This document shows positions 2,105-17,152 of a stretch of 20,396 bases of DNA, piece by piece; the stretch's first letter is position 1; the number at the start of each line of letters is the position of its first letter. Origin of the DNA: a virus. A program made the translations under genes and the position numbers. The notes beneath the pieces were generated by a model. That model was not told the origin of the DNA. It made no database searches and worked only from the letters and a program-made list of their open reading frames with translations. Location of the stretch: IMG/VR virus record IMGVR_UViG_3300032271_000480, positions 1 through 20,396 of that record; one strand, written 5' to 3'.

Positions 2105-3416
2105 CGACGAGCCTCCCTTCACGCCAGACGAGGCTTTTACGATCCGGGCGCTCGACGCCCTGGCTCCCCAATACTGGGGCATCGAGCCGATGGATCGGCT
2201 CACCGCCCAGACCGCGATCCGGGTGACGGCCATCCTCGCGTGTCTGCGGTTTCTCGCTCAGAGCATCGCCTGCATGCCGCTCGAGCTGCTGCACGTCGGC
2301 GACCGGCGGAAGCGCCCGGCGATCGATCTCCCCTGCTACCCCGTGCTCACCCGCCAGCCGAACGGATGGCAGTCCACCTATTCCTGGCTCGAGCAGATGG
2401 TTTTCCATACGGGGCTCTACGGGAACGGCTATTCGAAGATCGTCCCCGGCGCTCGCGGTTTCTGCTCGCAGCTCGTGCCGCTCCATCCGAGCCGCGTCCT
2501 CGTCAAGCGGATGAGCGACGACACGCTCGAGTACACGTTTACAGACGCGTTCGGCCGGACGGAGTCTCTCTCGCAGGACCAGGTTGTTCACTTCCGCTGG
2601 CTCTCGGATAACGGCTACATCGGGCAGATGCCCGCGGACTTGTGCGGGACGAGCGTCTCGCTCGCGCGGAAGCTCGATGTCGCCGCGTCGGCCTACTGGG
2701 ACAATTCAGCCCGGCCCGACACGGTCCTTGAGACGACCGAGCGGATTCCCGAGGAAGGCATGCAAGCGCTTCGCCAGGGATGGCGGGACGCGTACGGCGG
2801 AGCCCGCAACCGCGGGAAGGTCGCGATCCTCCCGAAGAGCGTCACGGCCCGGACCCTCGACGGCAATTCGATGGAGTCCTCGCAGTACATGCAGCAGCGC
2901 TCCGCGATCGTCTCGGAGATCGCCCGGATCTTCGGCGTCCCCGCGACGCTCATCGGCCATGAGGGCGCGATGAAGTGGAGCACGGTCGAGCAAGAACACC
3001 TTGGCGCGCAAGTGTGGTGCCTGCTCCCGTGGCAGCATCGGATCGAGTCGGCGATCGATGTCTCGATCTTGAGCGCGTACGGGAACGATGTTTACTGCAA
3101 GCTCGACAACCGCGGCCTAATGCGGGCCGACTCCGCGGGCCGCGCGCAGCTCTACCAGGCGCTCTGGTCGATGGGCGCGATCACGCCGAACGAGATTCGC
3201 GACCTCGAGGATCTCCCTCTCCTGGACAACCCGGCCGCTGACGAAACCTACGTGCAGCTCGGTTTCTCGACGCTCTCGGCCGCCGCCGCCCAGGCCCCGC
3301 AACAAGCACCGGCGCCGGTCGAGCCGGTCGCTCCGGCTCCCGATCAATCCAAGACGCTCCCGGCCGACGCGGCCGGACCATTCATCTCCGGAGGCGACGA
3401 TGTCATCCTCGGCTGA
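2016..3416 (+). CDS. Phage portal protein, HK97 family
   Basis: 466 aa from ATG 2016, or 449 aa from the alternative ATG 2067. The dodecameric portal forms the DNA channel at one head vertex, docks the terminase and nucleates head assembly. Family hallmarks seen: AIRVTAILACLRFLAQSIA (residues 67-85), HTGLYGNGYSKI (131-142), the LVPLHPSRV segment, DQVVHFRW, and IARIFGVPATLIG followed by STVEQEHL. The C-terminus is Ala/Pro-rich. The long overlap with terL (89 bases) makes the first start uncertain; GGAAAA at 2005-2010 favours it, and 2067 lacks a clear ribosome site. Cys residues at several positions are unremarkable. Placement between terL and prohead protease is canonical. Confidence 0.95.
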   Translation: MESSRQSADWRSRLRRAMSWGPTGRSQSSSDEPPFTPDEAFTIRALDALAPQYWGIEPMDRLTAQTAIRVTAILACLRFLAQSIACMPLELLHVGDRRKRPAIDLPCYPVLTRQPNGWQSTYSWLEQMVFHTGLYGNGYSKIVPGARGFCSQLVPLHPSRVLVKRMSDDTLEYTFTDAFGRTESLSQDQVVHFRWLSDNGYIGQMPADLCGTSVSLARKLDVAASAYWDNSARPDTVLETTERIPEEGMQALRQGWRDAYGGARNRGKVAILPKSVTARTLDGNSMESSQYMQQRSAIVSEIARIFGVPATLIGHEGAMKWSTVEQEHLGAQVWCLLPWQHRIESAIDVSILSAYGNDVYCKLDNRGLMRADSAGRAQLYQALWSMGAITPNEIRDLEDLPLLDNPAADETYVQLGFSTLSAAAAQAPQQAPAPVEPVAPAPDQSKTLPADAAGPFISGGDDVILG

Positions 3417-4434
3417 ACGTAGATTCCTCACCCTCGGCGAGATGCCGACGAAGCTCCGCGTCTCCCGCCGCAAGGCCGGGGGGATGAAGTTCTCCGGCTA
3501 CGCGGCCCGATACTCGTCCGCCTCGAGCGACCTCGGAGGCTTCCGCGAGATCCTCGCGCCGGGTGCTTTCGACAAGGTTCTCTCAAAGCGGTCGAAGTCC
3601 GATGTCATCCTCGCGTACAACCACAATCCCGACCACCTTCTCGCGCGGACGAGCTCCGGGACGCTGAAGCTCACGAGCGACGAGAAGGGCCTCCGGTTCT
3701 CGGCCGACCCGCCCGAGACCCAGCTCGCGAAAGACATCGGCGAGCTGATCCGTCGCGGCGACCTCACGGGCGCGAGTTTCGCGTTCACGGTCGCGCCGAA
3801 GAATGAAGCCTGGTCGACGGACGAGCGCGGCAACTCCGTCCGGACGATCCGAGAAGTTTCCGAGCTGTTCGACGTGTCGATCGTCACGACCCCGGCCTAC
3901 CCGGCGACCTCGATCGCGATGCGGTCGCTCCAGGCCTGGAAGCAGGCCCGGGCGCTCATGGGCCAGCCGATGGCTCCGGCCGCCGAGGCCGAAGCCGAGG
4001 ACCAGGAGCAGGAGGTCGGCGAGCAGCTCGTCGGGCCGGGCCTCACGATCTCGATCGACTTCGACGACACCTTCTCCGCGGCCCCTGGTCTCTGGCTCTC
4101 GTTCATCGAGGAGGCCTGCGAGGCCGGGAATACAATCATCATGACCAGCCGCCGGGAAGACACTCCCGAGAACCAGGCCCAGATCATGTCGGCCCTGGGC
4201 GACGACGCCGACCTCGCGGCCGTGATCCTCGCCGGGCCGGACTCGACGAAGCGGGACGCGGCGACCGCCGCCGGGTTCACGGTCGACATCTGGATCGACG
4301 ACGACCCGTCGACGGTCGACGGCCCGATCGAGCAGCAGCGGGCGGCATCGATCCGCATCGGCTCCCGCCTGGCGGCCGCTCGTGCGATCGCCGCCCACAA
4401 TCTCCGGAGGATCCGCGATCGTGTCTCCGGCTAA
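3400..4434 (+). CDS. HK97-type prohead protease fused to a HAD-phosphatase-like domain
   Basis: 344 aa, against roughly 180-230 for typical family members. Residues 25-175 form the S78/U35 prohead protease, which cleaves the capsid delta domain during maturation. The candidate triad is H75 (in YNHNPDH), S126 (in GASFAF) and E152 or E155 (in REVSELFDVSIVTTPAYPAT). An acidic Ala/Glu/Gln linker spans about 193-210. Residues 215-305 look like a HAD-superfamily fold: motif I DFDDT (D220, D222, T224), motif II IIMTSR (T249/S250), motif III K284 in STKRDA, motif IV WIDDDP (D300-D302). The HAD catalytic residues look complete. I recall similar HAD proteins as stand-alone phage genes, so fusion here is notable. 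ATG 3400 overlaps the portal end and follows GGAGG (3390-3394). M187 or M191 could serve as an internal start for a free HAD product. The HAD substrate is unknown. Confidence 0.9.
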   Translation: MSSSAERRFLTLGEMPTKLRVSRRKAGGMKFSGYAARYSSASSDLGGFREILAPGAFDKVLSKRSKSDVILAYNHNPDHLLARTSSGTLKLTSDEKGLRFSADPPETQLAKDIGELIRRGDLTGASFAFTVAPKNEAWSTDERGNSVRTIREVSELFDVSIVTTPAYPATSIAMRSLQAWKQARALMGQPMAPAAEAEAEDQEQEVGEQLVGPGLTISIDFDDTFSAAPGLWLSFIEEACEAGNTIIMTSRREDTPENQAQIMSALGDDADLAAVILAGPDSTKRDAATAAGFTVDIWIDDDPSTVDGPIEQQRAASIRIGSRLAAARAIAAHNLRRIRDRVSG

Positions 4435-4588
4435 ATGCAAACACTGTGGCGAGCGGATGCGCGTCGACTCCTCGAGGAGATGCGGCGAGCTCCAGCTCCA
4501 GTACCTCGAGTGCGTCCGTTGCGCGGCCCGGCGGAGCCGGGTCGTCGACCGCTCGACCGTGTGGCCGAAACCGAGGAGCAAGTCATGA
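4421..4588 (+). CDS. Small zinc-ribbon protein
   Basis: 55 aa from GTG 4421, chosen because GGAGG lies just upstream (4407-4411) and the frame then opens straight into a metal-binding motif. Residues show CKHC near the N-terminus and CVRC about 22 residues later, with a basic, Leu/Tyr-containing stretch between (RVDSSRRCGELQLQYLEC). This is the layout of a treble-clef or zinc-ribbon domain and recalls Ogr/Delta-type late activators and NrdR-like ribbons. A nucleic-acid-binding role is therefore plausible but unproven. The C-terminus is basic. It overlaps the end of the prohead protease gene by 14 bases and ends in an ATGA overlap with the next gene. Confidence 0.7.
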   Translation: MSPAKCKHCGERMRVDSSRRCGELQLQYLECVRCAARRSRVVDRSTVWPKPRSKS

Positions 4589-4959
4589 GCGTATCGGCCG
4601 CCGTCATATCCGCCCGAGATCTGCCGACGCTCGAGGCAAAAGTCCGCGCGTTCGTCGCGGTCGCCATCGGTGACGCGAGGGACGGCCTCACGATCGCCGA
4701 GCTCTCGGAGCTGACGATCGCGCTCCTCCGGCTCGTGATGGACGCTCTCGACAACATCCCCGCCGACGGCGAGCAGAAGAAGGCCTGGGCGCTCCAGGCC
4801 GTCGCCGACTTGTTCGACGCGGTGGCGGACTCGTGCGTCCCGCTCCTCGCTCGCCCGATCTGGTTCCTCCTTCGGCCGATGGTCCGCCAGCTCGTCCTAG
4901 CGGCCGCCTCCGGCGCAATCGAGCAACTTCTCCCCCTGGTACGGATGGCAACCCGATGA
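4585..4959 (+). CDS. Hypothetical protein, mostly helical, accessory cluster
   Basis: 124 aa from ATG 4585, preceded by GAGGAG at 4573-4578 and sharing ATGA with the zinc-ribbon stop. A longer frame opening at 4435 would overlap the zinc-ribbon gene and is Arg/Pro-rich, so it is rejected. The protein looks all-alpha: Leu/Ala heptads through TIAELSELTIALLRLVMDAL, then a more hydrophobic C-terminal half (PLLARPIWFLLRPMVRQLVL). It may lie on or in a membrane, but no clean transmembrane helix is obvious. No family recognised. It is translationally coupled to a membrane protein gene downstream. Confidence 0.75.
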   Translation: MSVSAAVISARDLPTLEAKVRAFVAVAIGDARDGLTIAELSELTIALLRLVMDALDNIPADGEQKKAWALQAVADLFDAVADSCVPLLARPIWFLLRPMVRQLVLAAASGAIEQLLPLVRMATR

Positions 4960-5219
4960 CAATCGCTCTCCTCTTCGCGGCGGCCGCCGCCGCCGTCTAC
5001 CTCTGGCCGACGATGCCGAAGGCCCCGGTCACGGTCAAGCCGCTCGAGGTCGCTCCGCCGCTCGTGACGTTCACGAAGGCCCCGACCTATCGGTCGGCGA
5101 TCGAGTCGCTCGCGTACGTCCGGACGCGGCTCATCAATACCGAGAACCTCACCGAAGCGGCGAAGTCCGCGGTCGACACGCTCACGCTCGCGCTCGTCGC
5201 CGGGTCCGACAAGGAGTAA
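4956..5219 (+). CDS. Small membrane-anchored protein
   Basis: 87 aa from ATG 4956, which overlaps the preceding stop as ATGA. An N-terminal hydrophobic segment (residues 2-17, IALLFAAAAAAVYLW) would act as a signal anchor. It is followed by a Pro/Val-rich linker (PKAPVTVKPLEVAPP) and a soluble helical tail of about 45 residues, probably on the outer side of the membrane. A single N-terminal helix with a short soluble domain resembles spanins and pinholin-like proteins in outline only; no motif proves that. No family recognised. An in-frame upstream extension is possible but has the Arg/Pro look of non-coding frames. Confidence 0.75.
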   Translation: MTIALLFAAAAAAVYLWPTMPKAPVTVKPLEVAPPLVTFTKAPTYRSAIESLAYVRTRLINTENLTEAAKSAVDTLTLALVAGSDKE

Positions 5220-5222
5220 CCC

Positions 5223-5675
5223 ATGCGCCGCGATCTCATCGCCGCCGCCCTGGTCGTCGCCTCCGTCTCGGCCTTGGCCATCTCCGCCCCGGCCCCGGCA
5301 CCGACCCCGGCTCCGCCCCATCCGGGGGCGCTTGAGCTGCGAGGGAAGTTCGTCGGCCCCGACGCGGCCTCCGACGCGGCGACGTTCTCGGCCTTGTGCG
5401 ACGAGCTCGCCGCGGTGATCGAGTTCGACTCCATGCAACCGACGCCCCGCCTGAAGACCGGCGCGAGCATCGAGGATCTCCGCGTCGCCGCCCGAGAGGC
5501 CCGGATGAAGGGGGTCTCGCTCGGAGCCCGTCAGCCGCGCGTGCGAGACGCGGTGAAGGAGTTCCTCGACGAGAAGGCCGGGGTCTCCGGCGGTCCCCTT
5601 ACACCGTCCCAGCGGTCCGCCTGGGCGGCAGCGTTCCGCGAGATCGGGAGGGCCGCCGCCGATGCCGCGCGATGA
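5223..5675 (+). CDS. Exported or membrane-anchored hypothetical protein
   Basis: 150 aa. It starts with a classic signal-peptide layout: MRRD, a hydrophobic core LIAAALVVASVSALAIS, then an Ala/Pro spacer (APAPAPTPAPPHP) that may be a flexible linker or follow a signal peptidase site. The mature part begins near ALELRGKFVGPDAASDAATF and is a compact helical domain with conserved-looking blocks (TPRLKTG, RVAAREARMKG, GARQPRVRDAV). I recall similar proteins from planctomycete phage regions but no function. It begins three bases after the previous stop and overlaps the papain-like peptidase by 14 bases, so the two are probably co-translated. Confidence 0.8.
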   Translation: MRRDLIAAALVVASVSALAISAPAPAPTPAPPHPGALELRGKFVGPDAASDAATFSALCDELAAVIEFDSMQPTPRLKTGASIEDLRVAAREARMKGVSLGARQPRVRDAVKEFLDEKAGVSGGPLTPSQRSAWAAAFREIGRAAADAAR

Positions 5676-6783
5676 GTTCGACGCCAGGCTGAACCGGGTC
5701 GCCTTCGTGGCGGCCGCCACGGTCTTCGGTTTCTGGTTCTGGTACTTCGGCCTGCACTACATCGACACGGCCTTCGTCCAGGCCGCGAGGAACTACGGCT
5801 ACACCCCCGACCCGGCCGGGACGAAGGAGTTCCTCGCCGAGCTCGACCAGCCGCTCTTTCGCAACGCTGGCGCCGAGGTAATTGCAAACGCGAAGGGCCG
5901 CGACGCGTACCTCTATCGCATCGCCGACAAGGCGCACCAAGCGGTTTACGGAACGCCCTACGGCCCGTGGGATCAAGGCCAGATCGGGACGTGTGTTTCG
6001 TTCGGCTGGGGCATGGGGTCCTACGTCGGCCAGTGCGTCGAGTGGTCGACCGGCGAGCTCCCCGCTCCGCCGAAGATCGTCGCTACCGAACCGATCTACG
6101 CGGGAAGCCGGACGGCGGGCCGGATGCCTCCTGTCTCCTTCGCTGGATTCAGTGACGGGAGTTTCGGAGCGGCCGCCGCGCGGTGGGTATCCGGCCAGTG
6201 CAAAGATAAGACGGTCGGCGGGATCCTGTTTCGCCAGAAGTACGGCGACGGCGAGCTCGACCTCACCACCTATTCCGTCCCGAAGTCGAAACAATGGGGC
6301 GCGTACGGATGCCCGCGTCCGCTGGCGCTCGAGGCGAATAAACACCTCGCGCGGGCGGTCGCCTTGTGCGAGACATGGGAAGGCCTCACGGCCGCGCTCG
6401 AAAGCGGCTACTGCGTCCCGGTCTGCTCGAACATCGGTTTCGCGAGCGGCGACCGCGACGCGGACGGATTCCTTCGAAGCGCCGGGAGCTGGGGTCACTG
6501 TATGGTCGCCATCTCGGTGAAGTACGCGGCGAACAGCGGCAAGAACCAGGAGCCGCCGATGAGGAACCCGCGCGACGGAGTGCTGATCATGAATAGCTGG
6601 GGACCGTCCTGGGTGAAGGGCGGCAAGCATCCGGCCGATCAGCCCGACGGGAGTTTCTGGATCACGCGGGCGGACGCCGAGAAAATTCTTCGACAGTCCG
6701 ACTCGTTCGTGATCGGTGGGGTCGGAGGCTTCGCGTATCGTGATATTCACAATGGAAACTGGATGGCAACCAATGAACAGTAG
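5662..6783 (+). CDS. Membrane-anchored papain-like (C1A) cysteine peptidase
   Basis: 373 aa. An N-terminal transmembrane segment (about residues 13-32, FVAAATVFGFWFWYFG) anchors a C1-type peptidase domain. QGQIGTCVSF (105-114) aligns without gaps to the papain QGSCGSCWAF block, giving oxyanion-hole Q105 and nucleophile C111. SWGHCMVAI supplies H279, and LIMNSWGPSW supplies N311 followed by the invariant SWG. The spacing Cys-His-Asn (168 and 32 residues) suits the family with an insert before His. Extra Cys residues (125, 180, 217, 236, 251, 255, 280) might form disulfides, in keeping with an extracytoplasmic location. No propeptide is obvious. GGGAGG precedes ATG 5662. Papain-like proteases are uncommon in phage structural regions. 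Possible jobs are envelope or wall protein cleavage at lysis, exclusion, or virion protein processing; none is proven. Confidence 0.88.
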   Translation: MPRDEFDARLNRVAFVAAATVFGFWFWYFGLHYIDTAFVQAARNYGYTPDPAGTKEFLAELDQPLFRNAGAEVIANAKGRDAYLYRIADKAHQAVYGTPYGPWDQGQIGTCVSFGWGMGSYVGQCVEWSTGELPAPPKIVATEPIYAGSRTAGRMPPVSFAGFSDGSFGAAAARWVSGQCKDKTVGGILFRQKYGDGELDLTTYSVPKSKQWGAYGCPRPLALEANKHLARAVALCETWEGLTAALESGYCVPVCSNIGFASGDRDADGFLRSAGSWGHCMVAISVKYAANSGKNQEPPMRNPRDGVLIMNSWGPSWVKGGKHPADQPDGSFWITRADAEKILRQSDSFVIGGVGGFAYRDIHNGNWMATNEQ

Positions 6784-7018
6784 AACGCTCGCAATCGCGG
6801 CCGTGTGCCTTTGCCTAGGGATGTACTTCGCCCGCCCGGCCCCGGAGCCGCCGCGTCCCGATCGGCCCGTCCTGTCGGCGATCGCCCGCCTGGCGAAGTT
6901 GGGGCTCTGGATCATGCTCGTCGGCGAGTCGGCCCCGGCCGAGAAGCAGACGCTCGCGTATCACGCTCACGTAGACGCGGACGGACATCGGATCCTCGAG
7001 CACGGGGAAGGATGGTAA
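6773..7018 (+). CDS. Small membrane protein, accessory cluster
   Basis: 81 aa from ATG 6773, inside the end of the peptidase gene, with GGATGG at 6761-6766 as ribosome site. An N-terminal hydrophobic helix (residues 5-18, TLAIAAVCLCLGMYFA) is followed by a Pro-rich turn and a second amphipathic or hydrophobic segment (VLSAIARLAKLGLWIMLVGE), then a hydrophilic tail ending in HGEGW. Two hydrophobic stretches in so short a protein would fit a class II holin, but this is a guess from topology only. No family recognised. The GTG at 6716 gives a longer frame but lies deep in the peptidase gene. Confidence 0.7.
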   Translation: MNSRTLAIAAVCLCLGMYFARPAPEPPRPDRPVLSAIARLAKLGLWIMLVGESAPAEKQTLAYHAHVDADGHRILEHGEGW

Positions 7019-7020
7019 TC

Positions 7021-7158
7021 ATGTGGGGCTGGATCCTCGGACTCCTCGCGTCCCTCTCGGCCGACCCGGCGGCCATCGACCGCGAGACTCCTCGAGCTGC
7101 GGCGGCGGTCGCCTACGCGTACGCGGCGCTCGCCGAGGATCCCGCGCAGGATCGGTAG
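7021..7158 (+). CDS. Very small exported or membrane peptide
   Basis: 45 aa from ATG 7021, two bases after the previous stop, with AAGGA at 7008-7012 as ribosome site. The first 16 residues (MWGWILGLLASLSADP) look like a short signal or anchor, followed by an Ala-rich helix and an acidic end. A start at ATG 7012 would add three residues but has poorer spacing. It closes the accessory cluster; a real intergenic gap follows. No function can be given. Confidence 0.6.
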   Translation: MWGWILGLLASLSADPAAIDRETPRAAAAVAYAYAALAEDPAQDR

Positions 7159-7192: not shown

Positions 7193-7264
7193 ATTCAATC
7201 GCCCGGCCCATTCGTAGAAAGTGTGACGCGTAATCGTTCACGCAACCCCGAAGGGAATTCTCTC

Positions 7265-8482
7265 ATGTCGACCAGCCGTCGCCGCCTGCTCCAGGACGAA
7301 GCCGCCAAGCTCGCCAATCAGATCGAAGAGCTCCGCGCTCTGGCTCCGAAGGACGACGCCGAAGCGGCGACGATCGCCGAGCGGCTCGACGCCGCCTCGA
7401 AGCGTAGCGAGCAGATCCTCCCCGAGCTCGACCGCGAGAACGCGCTCGACGCGCGGCTGAAGGCTCTCCGCTCGACCGTCACCGACGCCTACGAGCACCG
7501 GGACGCCCTGGTCCGCGGCGAGGCCCCGACGGTCGAGACCGCCGAGGCGGCCGCCGTCCGCGGCTTCGGCAGTCGGAAGGAAGCCCATCAAGTCGGCCTC
7601 GCTCTCCGGAGCCTGTTCCGTGGCGAGACCCGCGCGATGGGCGAGTCCTCGACCGCCTACGACGGCAAGGGCTCGGAGTACGTTGTCGTCCAGCTCTACA
7701 ACGCGGTGATCAACATCCTGAAATATCAGTCGGTCGCGTTCCAGGTCGCCAACGTCGTCGAGACGAACAGCAACCGGATCACCTTCCCGAAGGTCGGCGA
7801 GATCACTGCGACCCCGATCAGCGAGAACACCGACACGACCGACGTCGATGTCTCGACGAGCGGCGCGACCTGCAACGTCCTCGACTGGCGGTCGAGCGTC
7901 GCGGTGTCGAATTCCCTCATCGAGGACTCCCCGGTCGACGTTGCCGGTCTCGTGGCGAATCGTCTCGCCTACGGCTACGCGAAGAGCATCGACAAGGCCT
8001 GGCTCCAGGGCTACTCCTCGGGCGGGATCACGATCGGCGGCCTGTTCGCGGCTCTCGATTCCGGTAACGTCGTGACGGTCGCGAAGACCGCCGCGACGAC
8101 CGTCGGAAACTTCGCCGATGTCGTGGGCAAGATCGACCCGTACGCGATCAACCCGAGCTGGGTCGTCGGTACGCTCGGTTGGGCCGAGGTGATGAAGGTC
8201 TCCGCGACGCTTCTGAACGCGAACATCGTCGACGGAACCGCGGCGAGCCTCTGGGGCGCTCCGGTTCGCAAGGCATACAACATGCCCGCGAACGTTTACG
8301 CGATGTACGGCGACTTCGGATTCTCGTCGCAGATCGCAGTGAAGCCGAACGGCCTCCAGATCACGGCCGCCCGCGAGCTGCTGATCAAGAAGAACGCGAC
8401 CCTGTTCGTGGGTATCCAGCGGTTCGGCATCCTGAACAGCTCGCCGGAGTTCGCCGCCGCCCTGAACAAGGCCACGGTCTAA
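7265..8482 (+). CDS. Major capsid protein, HK97 fold, with N-terminal delta-like scaffold region
   Basis: 405 aa. It builds the icosahedral shell. Residues 1-75 are charged coiled-coil helices (KLANQIEELRAL and ARLKALRSTV heptads) like the HK97 delta domain, which acts as a scaffold and is removed by the prohead protease; cleavage is expected around residues 100-135, before the shell domain. The shell part begins near SSTAYDGKGSEYVVVQLYNAVI and contains typical blocks: ILKYQSVAFQVANVVET, ITFPKV, IDKAWLQGYSSGG, and the C-terminal LIKKNATLFVGIQRFG. ATG 7265 is chosen over GTG 7223 because AAGGGAA (7252-7258) sits upstream and the extra 14 residues look non-coding. A spacer with palindromes lies upstream and a terminator downstream, so it may be separately transcribed at high level. 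Confidence 0.95.
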   Translation: MSTSRRRLLQDEAAKLANQIEELRALAPKDDAEAATIAERLDAASKRSEQILPELDRENALDARLKALRSTVTDAYEHRDALVRGEAPTVETAEAAAVRGFGSRKEAHQVGLALRSLFRGETRAMGESSTAYDGKGSEYVVVQLYNAVINILKYQSVAFQVANVVETNSNRITFPKVGEITATPISENTDTTDVDVSTSGATCNVLDWRSSVAVSNSLIEDSPVDVAGLVANRLAYGYAKSIDKAWLQGYSSGGITIGGLFAALDSGNVVTVAKTAATTVGNFADVVGKIDPYAINPSWVVGTLGWAEVMKVSATLLNANIVDGTAASLWGAPVRKAYNMPANVYAMYGDFGFSSQIAVKPNGLQITAARELLIKKNATLFVGIQRFGILNSSPEFAAALNKATV

Positions 8483-15838: not shown

Positions 15839-16167
15839 GCAAGGCCCCGAGGAAGGCATCGACCCGCGTCTCCTTCTCGGCGAAGTCTGCAAAGCGGATC
15901 GCCCGCGTCGTCCGCCTGGTCGAGGGCGGCGACCGAAAGCAGGGGCCGACGACGCTCCGGACATCCGTCGGCGACGACGCGATCGTCCGCGGCACGTTCA
16001 CGGCTCCGTGGAGCAAGGGATCGACCGCGACCGTCACCGACGCGAATCTCTCGGCCGTGACGTACCAAGCAAAAAACTATTTTGCGGACATCACTGGGAC
16101 CGGATCGAAAGCGTGCGCGATCGCGTACGCGAGCGGCGAGTGGATCCTCATTGCGGTGGAGTGCTGA
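15835..16167 (+). CDS. Small tail-region hypothetical protein
   Basis: 110 aa from ATG 15835 (ATGA overlap). The first 30 residues are basic (SKAPRKASTRVSFSAKSAKR), then the protein turns beta-rich with Thr/Ala/Gly and two Cys (one near the C-terminal end, VEC). The pattern GTFTAPWSKGSTATVTDANLSAVTY looks like a small beta-barrel or sandwich. No family recognised. It sits between two tail-tip candidates, so a minor tip or hub component is likely. Codon use is as in the core genes, unlike the following gene. Confidence 0.72.
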   Translation: MSKAPRKASTRVSFSAKSAKRIARVVRLVEGGDRKQGPTTLRTSVGDDAIVRGTFTAPWSKGSTATVTDANLSAVTYQAKNYFADITGTGSKACAIAYASGEWILIAVEC

Positions 16168-16168
16168 C

Positions 16169-17152
16169 ATGCTCGGCTCGAGCTGCTCGCCATGCTGCGG
16201 CGGTTGTGCATGCACAGAACAAGTTTTCAACAAGCTCGTCGCGTCGTCCGTCACGCTGACGCTTAGCTCGCCTGTCCCGAATCAGGTCGAACTAACATAC
16301 GGTGAATACAAGATATTCGGCAACTCAGTGGCATCAGGGCAGATCCCGCCGAACCCGTATACGTTTACGATTCAATACACGGCCTACAAATCGAGCGATT
16401 TCTACAAGACCTACTCGCTCGCGCTTAATGCCAGCGCCAGCTCGTTTACGTGCTCCAAAAACAACTCCGGCGGTTATTCAAACTCGGCCACTGTTGTTTT
16501 TGGATATTCGGACGATTCCGTAAGTTTAACGTGTTACATGGTCCTGTTTCCCAAAAACGCAAACGGATCGGCTCCGATGTTTCCGACGCTTGGCGGGTAT
16601 CAAACGGGGTACCAAATGCAAAAGATTGGCGATACCGATTGTTACTTCGCGGCCTATTTTTACGGAACACTGTACGACAAAGTAAAAGAATTCGATTACG
16701 GAGTTCTGCCGGATCTGATGTCGTGGAACAAAACGACGCGCGACGACCCGGCGATAAACGCCGATCCTCCATTACGACAACAAGTCTGGACGATCAGTCA
16801 ATCGCCAAGGGCGTGTTGCGCGCCAAACGACGCCAACTCGTCGTCCAAGCAGTTCGGTTTTTGGGATCAGAATTACGCGGCAAGCGGAACGCAATTTGCG
16901 AAAACACAGTACGCTCGTTTGAGTGCTAACACTCTTGCCGATGCGCAGATGACATCGTCCTCGCTTCAGGACGGTTTTCCTAGTTCCGCTACGTGCGTCG
17001 TAAAGATGCGCCGCGATGCTCCGACTAGGTTTTGGACTACCGGCTCGCAAAACCTGGCCTTTTGTAACGGGCATTACCAAACCGACACAAAGGCGGGCCA
17101 AGATTCTTCAGACTCCACGGCAACAGGTGTTATTCAAATAACCCCGCCATGA
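16169..17152 (+). CDS. Cys-rich tail-tip protein with atypical base composition
   Basis: 327 aa from ATG 16169, one base after the previous stop; an in-frame upstream extension is shadow. The N-terminus packs five Cys in ten positions (C6, C9, C10, C13, C15; SCSPCCGGCAC), followed by a beta-rich, Ser/Thr/Asn/Tyr-rich body with further Cys including a CC pair (RACCAPN). This would suit a metal-binding or disulfide-linked start and a receptor-facing beta structure. Codons here are much richer in A/T-ending forms than in neighbours from about 16250 to 17140, as if acquired separately or under diversifying selection. No family recognised. It overlaps the next gene by ATGA. Confidence 0.8.
   Translation: MLGSSCSPCCGGCACTEQVFNKLVASSVTLTLSSPVPNQVELTYGEYKIFGNSVASGQIPPNPYTFTIQYTAYKSSDFYKTYSLALNASASSFTCSKNNSGGYSNSATVVFGYSDDSVSLTCYMVLFPKNANGSAPMFPTLGGYQTGYQMQKIGDTDCYFAAYFYGTLYDKVKEFDYGVLPDLMSWNKTTRDDPAINADPPLRQQVWTISQSPRACCAPNDANSSSKQFGFWDQNYAASGTQFAKTQYARLSANTLADAQMTSSSLQDGFPSSATCVVKMRRDAPTRFWTTGSQNLAFCNGHYQTDTKAGQDSSDSTATGVIQITPP

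Follow-up and report, generated by a model that had tools for sequence, protein, structure and literature searches.

A conserved phage cassette encoding a papain-family peptidase with a predicted membrane anchor, and its possible role in lysis of planctomycete hosts

The DNA analysed here, a 20,396-base virus contig (hereafter the window, meaning the whole stretch), encodes a cysteine peptidase that belongs to the C1A papain family, as far as its sequence and predicted structure allow. The conserved unit is a cassette of five to six genes (holl, often tmA, secB, the protease gene C1, tmD and orfE), not the protease gene alone, and it is core rather than accessory in these phages, many of which are uncultured. 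No recognisable wall-dissolving enzyme was found in those scanned, so they may burst their hosts by cutting envelope proteins. The reading favoured here, to which we give a probability of about 55%, is that the cassette is a lysis module in which a signal-anchored protease is used instead of an endolysin and cuts proteins of the envelope.

Fold and predicted anchor of the peptidase

The protease ORF extends from an ATG at 5662 to a stop codon at 6781-6783 and specifies a product of 373 aa, which contains the motifs QGQIGTC (Q105-x5-C111), WGH279C and N311SWG. The initial annotation of this DNA had described such an ORF at 5662-6783, with Q105, C111, H279 and N311 in C1A order, and both the ORF and the residues were found exactly as described. 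The window protease has no significant match to any Pfam, PHROG or PADLOC model, so that first identification had been made from the motifs alone; PF00112 was likewise not detected in 12 phage records. A scan of IMG/VR recovered 80 loci with protease homologues (39-100% identity in the best segment), and all four residues are shared by every one of the 29 homologues in a non-redundant set clustered at 90% identity, which indicates that the catalytic motif pattern is not a product of chance. Within a divergent set of 18 protease sequences, reaching down to 25% identity, the Q, C and H never vary and one sequence has Q in place of the N. The Q-to-C spacing is six in the window protease and its close relatives, as it is in papain, and five in most others.

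An AlphaFold2 model of the protease, computed with the family alignment as input, has a pLDDT of 87.1 and a pTM of 0.83. When it was compared with the PDB using Foldseek, 117 matches were obtained at E<=0.001, and the best 50 of the 117 are all papain-type peptidases. VIA-align superimposed xylellain (PDB 3ois) on the model with a Z of 21.5 over 243 residues (rmsd 3.1), and procathepsins, cathepsins, pro-papain and papain relatives with Z of 17-20. The predicted fold is that of papain, and not that of an S78/S49-type serine protease. Profile A8, built from the divergent protease set, matches solved C1A chains (E 1e-4) with the H and the NSWG motif aligned. Membership of the C1A family is therefore indicated by the conserved catalytic residues and the predicted papain fold, and the papain identity proposed initially is borne out; neither a non-papain fold nor a lack of conservation at C111, H279 and N311, the outcomes named in advance as contrary to it, materialised.

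Xylellain, a short C1A peptidase from the bacterium Xylella fastidiosa, is the closest solved fold among the Foldseek and VIA-align matches listed, and its alignment reaches into an N-terminal pro-like segment of the phage protease (model residues 34-355). The two differ in that they share 17% identity and in that the phage protease has in addition a predicted signal anchor and belongs to a phage cassette. The N-terminus of the protease is hydrophobic, with a 19-residue Kyte-Doolittle maximum of 1.74 beginning at residue 13, and the N-terminal maximum exceeds 1.6 in 79 of 79 near-full-length homologues. This fits an uncleaved signal anchor, as a topology predicted from sequence, and agrees with the membrane anchor that had been claimed.

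Many relatives of the protease (L012, L013, L039, L057, L076, L084 and L085) also possess a conserved short C-terminal tail (...SLAP, ...HLAQ, ...ALAL), which could be a recognition tail; the window protease lacks it.

Composition, position and retention of the cassette

Most of the cassette products are membrane or secreted proteins, and hydrophobic N-termini are found in the C1, secB and tmA products. Analysis of the neighbours at each locus revealed that the genes are kept together on one strand, the late strand, with holl present in 73 loci, secB in 83, tmD in 75, tmA in 13 and orfE or its thioredoxin form in 28. The window cassette is compact, with short overlaps at three of its junctions (Table 1).

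Table 1. Features of the window in and around the cassette
Feature	Position	Strand	Description
Prohead protease S78	3400..4434	+	Upstream flank
Small zinc-ribbon-like ORF (CKHC...CVRC)	4421..4588	+	Follows S78 and precedes holl; a conserved element of the S78-type lineage
holl	4585..4959	+	124 aa; conserved ahead of the protease gene; has amphipathic/hydrophobic segments; likened to holins on its position only
tmA	4956..5219	+	87 aa; TM segment at the N-terminus; shares 4 bp with holl; present in a subset of cassettes
secB	5223..5675	+	150 aa; hydrophobic N-terminus and a helical domain that is conserved; directly precedes the protease gene, overlapping its start by 14 bp
C1	5662..6783	+	C1A papain-family (xylellain-like) cysteine peptidase, as assigned from sequence and predicted structure, with predicted N-terminal signal anchor; Q105 oxyanion, C111 nucleophile, H279, N311
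tmD	6773..7018	+	81-aa TM protein; ends in a conserved ...HGEGW; its first 11 bp are shared with the end of C1
orfE	7021..7158	+	45-aa short form
HK97-type major capsid protein	7223..8482	+	Downstream flank

The N-terminal module of orfE is constant and its C-terminus varies: there is none in the window, and relatives extend into either a Cys-rich zinc-ribbon-like tail or a secreted thioredoxin-like domain (L085:11337-11906; L014:9279-9557 was also compared). The secreted thioredoxin-like form occurs in Blastopirellula marina, in other planctomycete prophages and in L084. Additional small proteins are inserted in some cassettes, namely one with two hydrophobic stretches in G023 and G024 and a 3-TM Transgly_assoc protein in G003 and L078. 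Transgly_assoc proteins (PF04226) constitute the putative holin family TCDB 1.E.43 (PMC6281302). The member in the G003 and L078 cassettes, which has no counterpart in the window, is counted in favour of a lysis function, the holin function of the family being itself putative.

The whole cassette is unnamed by family databases. Profile searches with holl, secB and tmD gave no match, and neither holl, tmD nor tmA matches a holin family; Pfam/PHROG-type scans, together with the holl and tmD profiles, detected no recognised holin in the window. The secB product was modelled with a pLDDT of 85, yet no solved structure matches it at E<=0.001. A search of INPHARED phages for holin-like cassette neighbours returned nothing, and PADLOC-DB models matched none of 10 cassette proteins.

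The cassette is present in at least three phage lineages and at three genome positions. It lies between the S78 and capsid genes in the window, in its capsid relatives and in L015, L019, L022 and others; upstream of terminase in L045, L066, the B. marina locus L085 and prophage L231; and after the last tail genes, ahead of an opposite-strand integrase, in G001, G002 and G003. The last three have a lambda-type portal and a GpA terminase, a backbone unrelated to that of the window, and integrases are present in G001-G004, which are temperate phages. The tail end before the integrase and the region upstream of terminase are customary positions for lysis genes, so that two of the three placements lend support to a lysis module; the window-type cassette shares its strand with the late genes that surround it, but the S78/capsid site is not a customary lysis position. 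The head-cluster location given in the initial annotation holds for the window, where the terS, terL, portal and S78 prohead protease genes are upstream of the protease and the capsid gene is downstream, and not for the other phages, in which the cassette is outside the head cluster.

Retention was assessed with the capsid, not the protease, as query, which removes selection bias, and the cassette was found in 14 of 14 capsid-relative contigs that cover the site. The longer records among relatives of the G001 portal (n=14) include nine with the protease gene and five without it (G020, G025, G026, G028 and G029). These five were rejected as counter-examples, since each record terminates before or at the cassette site (G020 stops just after holl and secB), and an intact genome without the protease was therefore not seen. 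A 48-kb contig with a broken C1 copy (G017) was set aside as a probable chimera, because its left 5 kb has lambda R/Rz-like genes on DNA of different composition; the ORFs concerned (L207:1-5400, the left end of G017) were recognised by eye, and we take them to resemble R and Rz of coliphage lambda.

Carriers and the search for another lysis enzyme

Protease relatives with known carriers are found mostly in Planctomycetota, so the host of the window phage is probably a planctomycete. Matches to genomes were to B. marina, three Planctomycetota MAGs and one unplaced MAG; one genome match is to a MAG called Alphaproteobacteria, on a 6-kb contig in which a capsid gene adjoins the protease. In the phylum of B. 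marina, 12 of 392 genomes carry the family, several of them with the whole cassette. Searches of INPHARED phages and PLSDB by tblastn with the window protease, and of INPHARED phages with two divergent relatives, found nothing.

Two Mucilaginibacter chromosomes encode anchor-less copies with neither cassette nor phage context (L086:9974-10900 and L088:9926-10888), which were likely acquired by horizontal transfer. A prophage-like region in a planctomycete genome (L226:8536-11703) has an anchor-less protease adjoining a lipoprotein and a membrane protein, and the contrast between this variant and the anchored cassette recalls the split between anchored and soluble endolysins.

Peptidoglycan hydrolases were sought in these phages by several routes. 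None is among the best 25 Pfam families listed for G001 (42.7 kb) and G002 (45.3 kb), the remainder being weaker than ~7e-4, and none was detected in ORF-level Pfam scans of G003 (41.8 kb) and G004 (33.4 kb); the ORF-level families in G001-G004 are those of terminase, portal, capsid, tail, integrase and replication proteins. The ORFs without homologues in the set (from G016, G018, G019, G023, G024, part of the B. marina prophage and the window) yielded no peptidoglycan hydrolase among the best 25 of 29 families. Six-frame searches for Amidase_2, Phage_lysozyme, SLT, CHAP and Peptidase_M15_4 in 12 records were negative, and control genomes were positive. The phage records are IMG/VR contigs of unproven completeness; RusA and terminase are ~300 bp apart in G001 and G002 spans RusA to terminase, so that G002 is close to complete, with at most a few hundred bases missing by comparison with G001. 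It is possible that these phages possess an endolysin from an undescribed family.

Role of the cassette and further genes of these phages

In the favoured model, the protease would be made late, its TM segment serving as a signal anchor that leaves the catalytic domain on the periplasmic side, and would be held inactive until the small holin-like membrane proteins depolarise or permeabilise the membrane. The activated protease would then cut structural proteins of the envelope and so take over from a peptidoglycan endolysin, in a manner akin to a SAR endolysin with a protease domain. Where the secreted thioredoxin-like partner is present, it may keep the catalytic cysteine reduced, open the disulfide-linked sacculus, or both. 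The wider proposition, that Planctomycetota phages have a protease-based lysis in which an anchored papain-family peptidase, thioredoxin-aided in some, dismantles the disulfide-linked envelope and wholly replaces the endolysin, is tentative and stands at less than even odds.

The initial annotation had offered three functions for the protease, and among these envelope attack at lysis is favoured because the protease gene is the unvarying core of a set of membrane and secreted proteins, no recognisable endolysin was found in the scanned phages and the wall of the likely hosts has been described as rich in protein. The planctomycete wall has been described in the literature as a disulfide-linked, protein-rich sacculus, against which a protease, with a reductant in some phages, would be a sensible tool. 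Planctomycetes do possess peptidoglycan (PMC5814848), however, so a protease alone may not suffice. Also counting against a lysis module are the lack of a holin family match for holl, tmA and tmD and the location of the window cassette outside a customary lysis position.

We know of no tailed phage for which host lysis by a protease in place of the endolysin has been demonstrated. SAR endolysins have an uncleaved type II signal anchor from which they are freed by pinholin-driven depolarisation, and P1 Lyz is activated by disulfide isomerisation (PMC9025707). The SAR-endolysin/pinholin systems of P1 (Lyz) and phage 21 resemble the cassette in that an enzyme with a signal anchor, a predicted one in the cassette, is found beside small membrane proteins, and the redox control of P1 Lyz has a possible parallel in the thioredoxin-like partner; SAR endolysins are muralytic, whereas the phage enzyme is a papain-type protease, as predicted from its fold. 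Papain-type proteases had initially been called uncommon in phages, a statement that needs tempering since xylellain-type C1A peptidases, the same subfamily as the window protease, have been reported in tailed phages (Caudoviricetes) as horizontal acquisitions from bacteria (PMC10380794). The passage of that report dealing with them describes no cassette, host link or lysis role. Among open-licence papers, no relevant paper was found on phage lysis in planctomycetes, nor any report of this cassette, its fixed presence in planctomycete phages or a replacement of the endolysin. What is apparently new is thus the cassette and the apparent endolysin replacement, C1A peptidases in tailed phages being already known.

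The main rival within the lysis interpretation, which we consider unlikely, is that the C1A-fold enzyme acts as the peptidoglycan endolysin, cutting stem or cross-bridge peptides, the cassette being an ordinary one with an unusual catalytic domain. Members of other papain-superfamily clans, CHAP and NlpC/P60, do cut peptidoglycan (PMC10318531). The pseudomurein endoisopeptidases PeiW and PeiP provide a precedent for peptidase lysins, in methanogens, and the absence of other endolysins from the scanned phages is equally expected if the enzyme is an endolysin. Furthermore, among the fold neighbours of the protease in BFVD are phage proteins that bear the names N-acetylmuramidase and peptidoglycan binding-like; these names hint at C1-type domains in the lysins of other phages and suggest such fusions, and they count for a lysis role of the cassette in general as well. 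The closest folds, however, are protein-cutting C1A enzymes and not CHAP or NlpC/P60, and the protease family has no cell-wall-binding domain. C1A enzymes act, moreover, on ordinary L-peptides.

Functions outside lysis are less probable again. An anchored protease with small membrane partners, in phages whose integrases mark them as temperate, might trim surface receptors or DNA-entry proteins and so block reinfection, as in superinfection exclusion or lysogenic conversion, but the cassette is core in two unrelated lineages without any loss seen, is flanked by late genes on the late strand and has no PADLOC match, and the phages would be left without a lysis module; we regard this as a poor prospect. 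Cleavage of a head or tail protein, or packaging and injection of the protease, would accord with the site of the window-type gene inside the head operon. Virion maturation is nonetheless disfavoured, and quite improbable, because S78 already provides the window phage with a maturation protease (a head maturation protease family is likewise present in G003) and the position of the cassette shifts between phages, being away from the head genes in others; the hydrophobic anchor in every near-full-length homologue is a further argument against it. The isolated anchor-less chromosomal copies in Mucilaginibacter would suit accessory cargo hitch-hiking in phages, with a competitive or toxin-like use, which is the least probable of the explanations given the universal retention of the cassette and the co-conservation of its genes.

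If the cassette is the lysis module favoured above, it would be relevant to how the atypical planctomycete envelope is held together, a matter long disputed between protein wall and peptidoglycan. Such a conserved cassette, with a protease and no recognisable endolysin, offers a directly testable answer to how phages exit from planctomycetes, and it could serve as a tool for opening these hard-to-manipulate cells.

Several other genes of these phages have features of their own. The C-terminal part of the window S78 protease (4020-4434) is an extension that matches phrog_4256/4919 and has a HAD-like look ('ISIDFDDTFS...IDDDP'), as though a phosphatase-like domain had been fused to the prohead protease. 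An ORF at 16172-17152 begins MLGSSCSPCCGGCAC, contains a Cys cluster and lies where the window is richest in AT (GC 0.535 across 16001-17000); it is a candidate tail or receptor-binding protein. Close to the tail module, within the late genes, three related phages encode a putative mannosyltransferase (PF11051; L204:16125-17069, L211:12810-13751 and L214:15583-16545).
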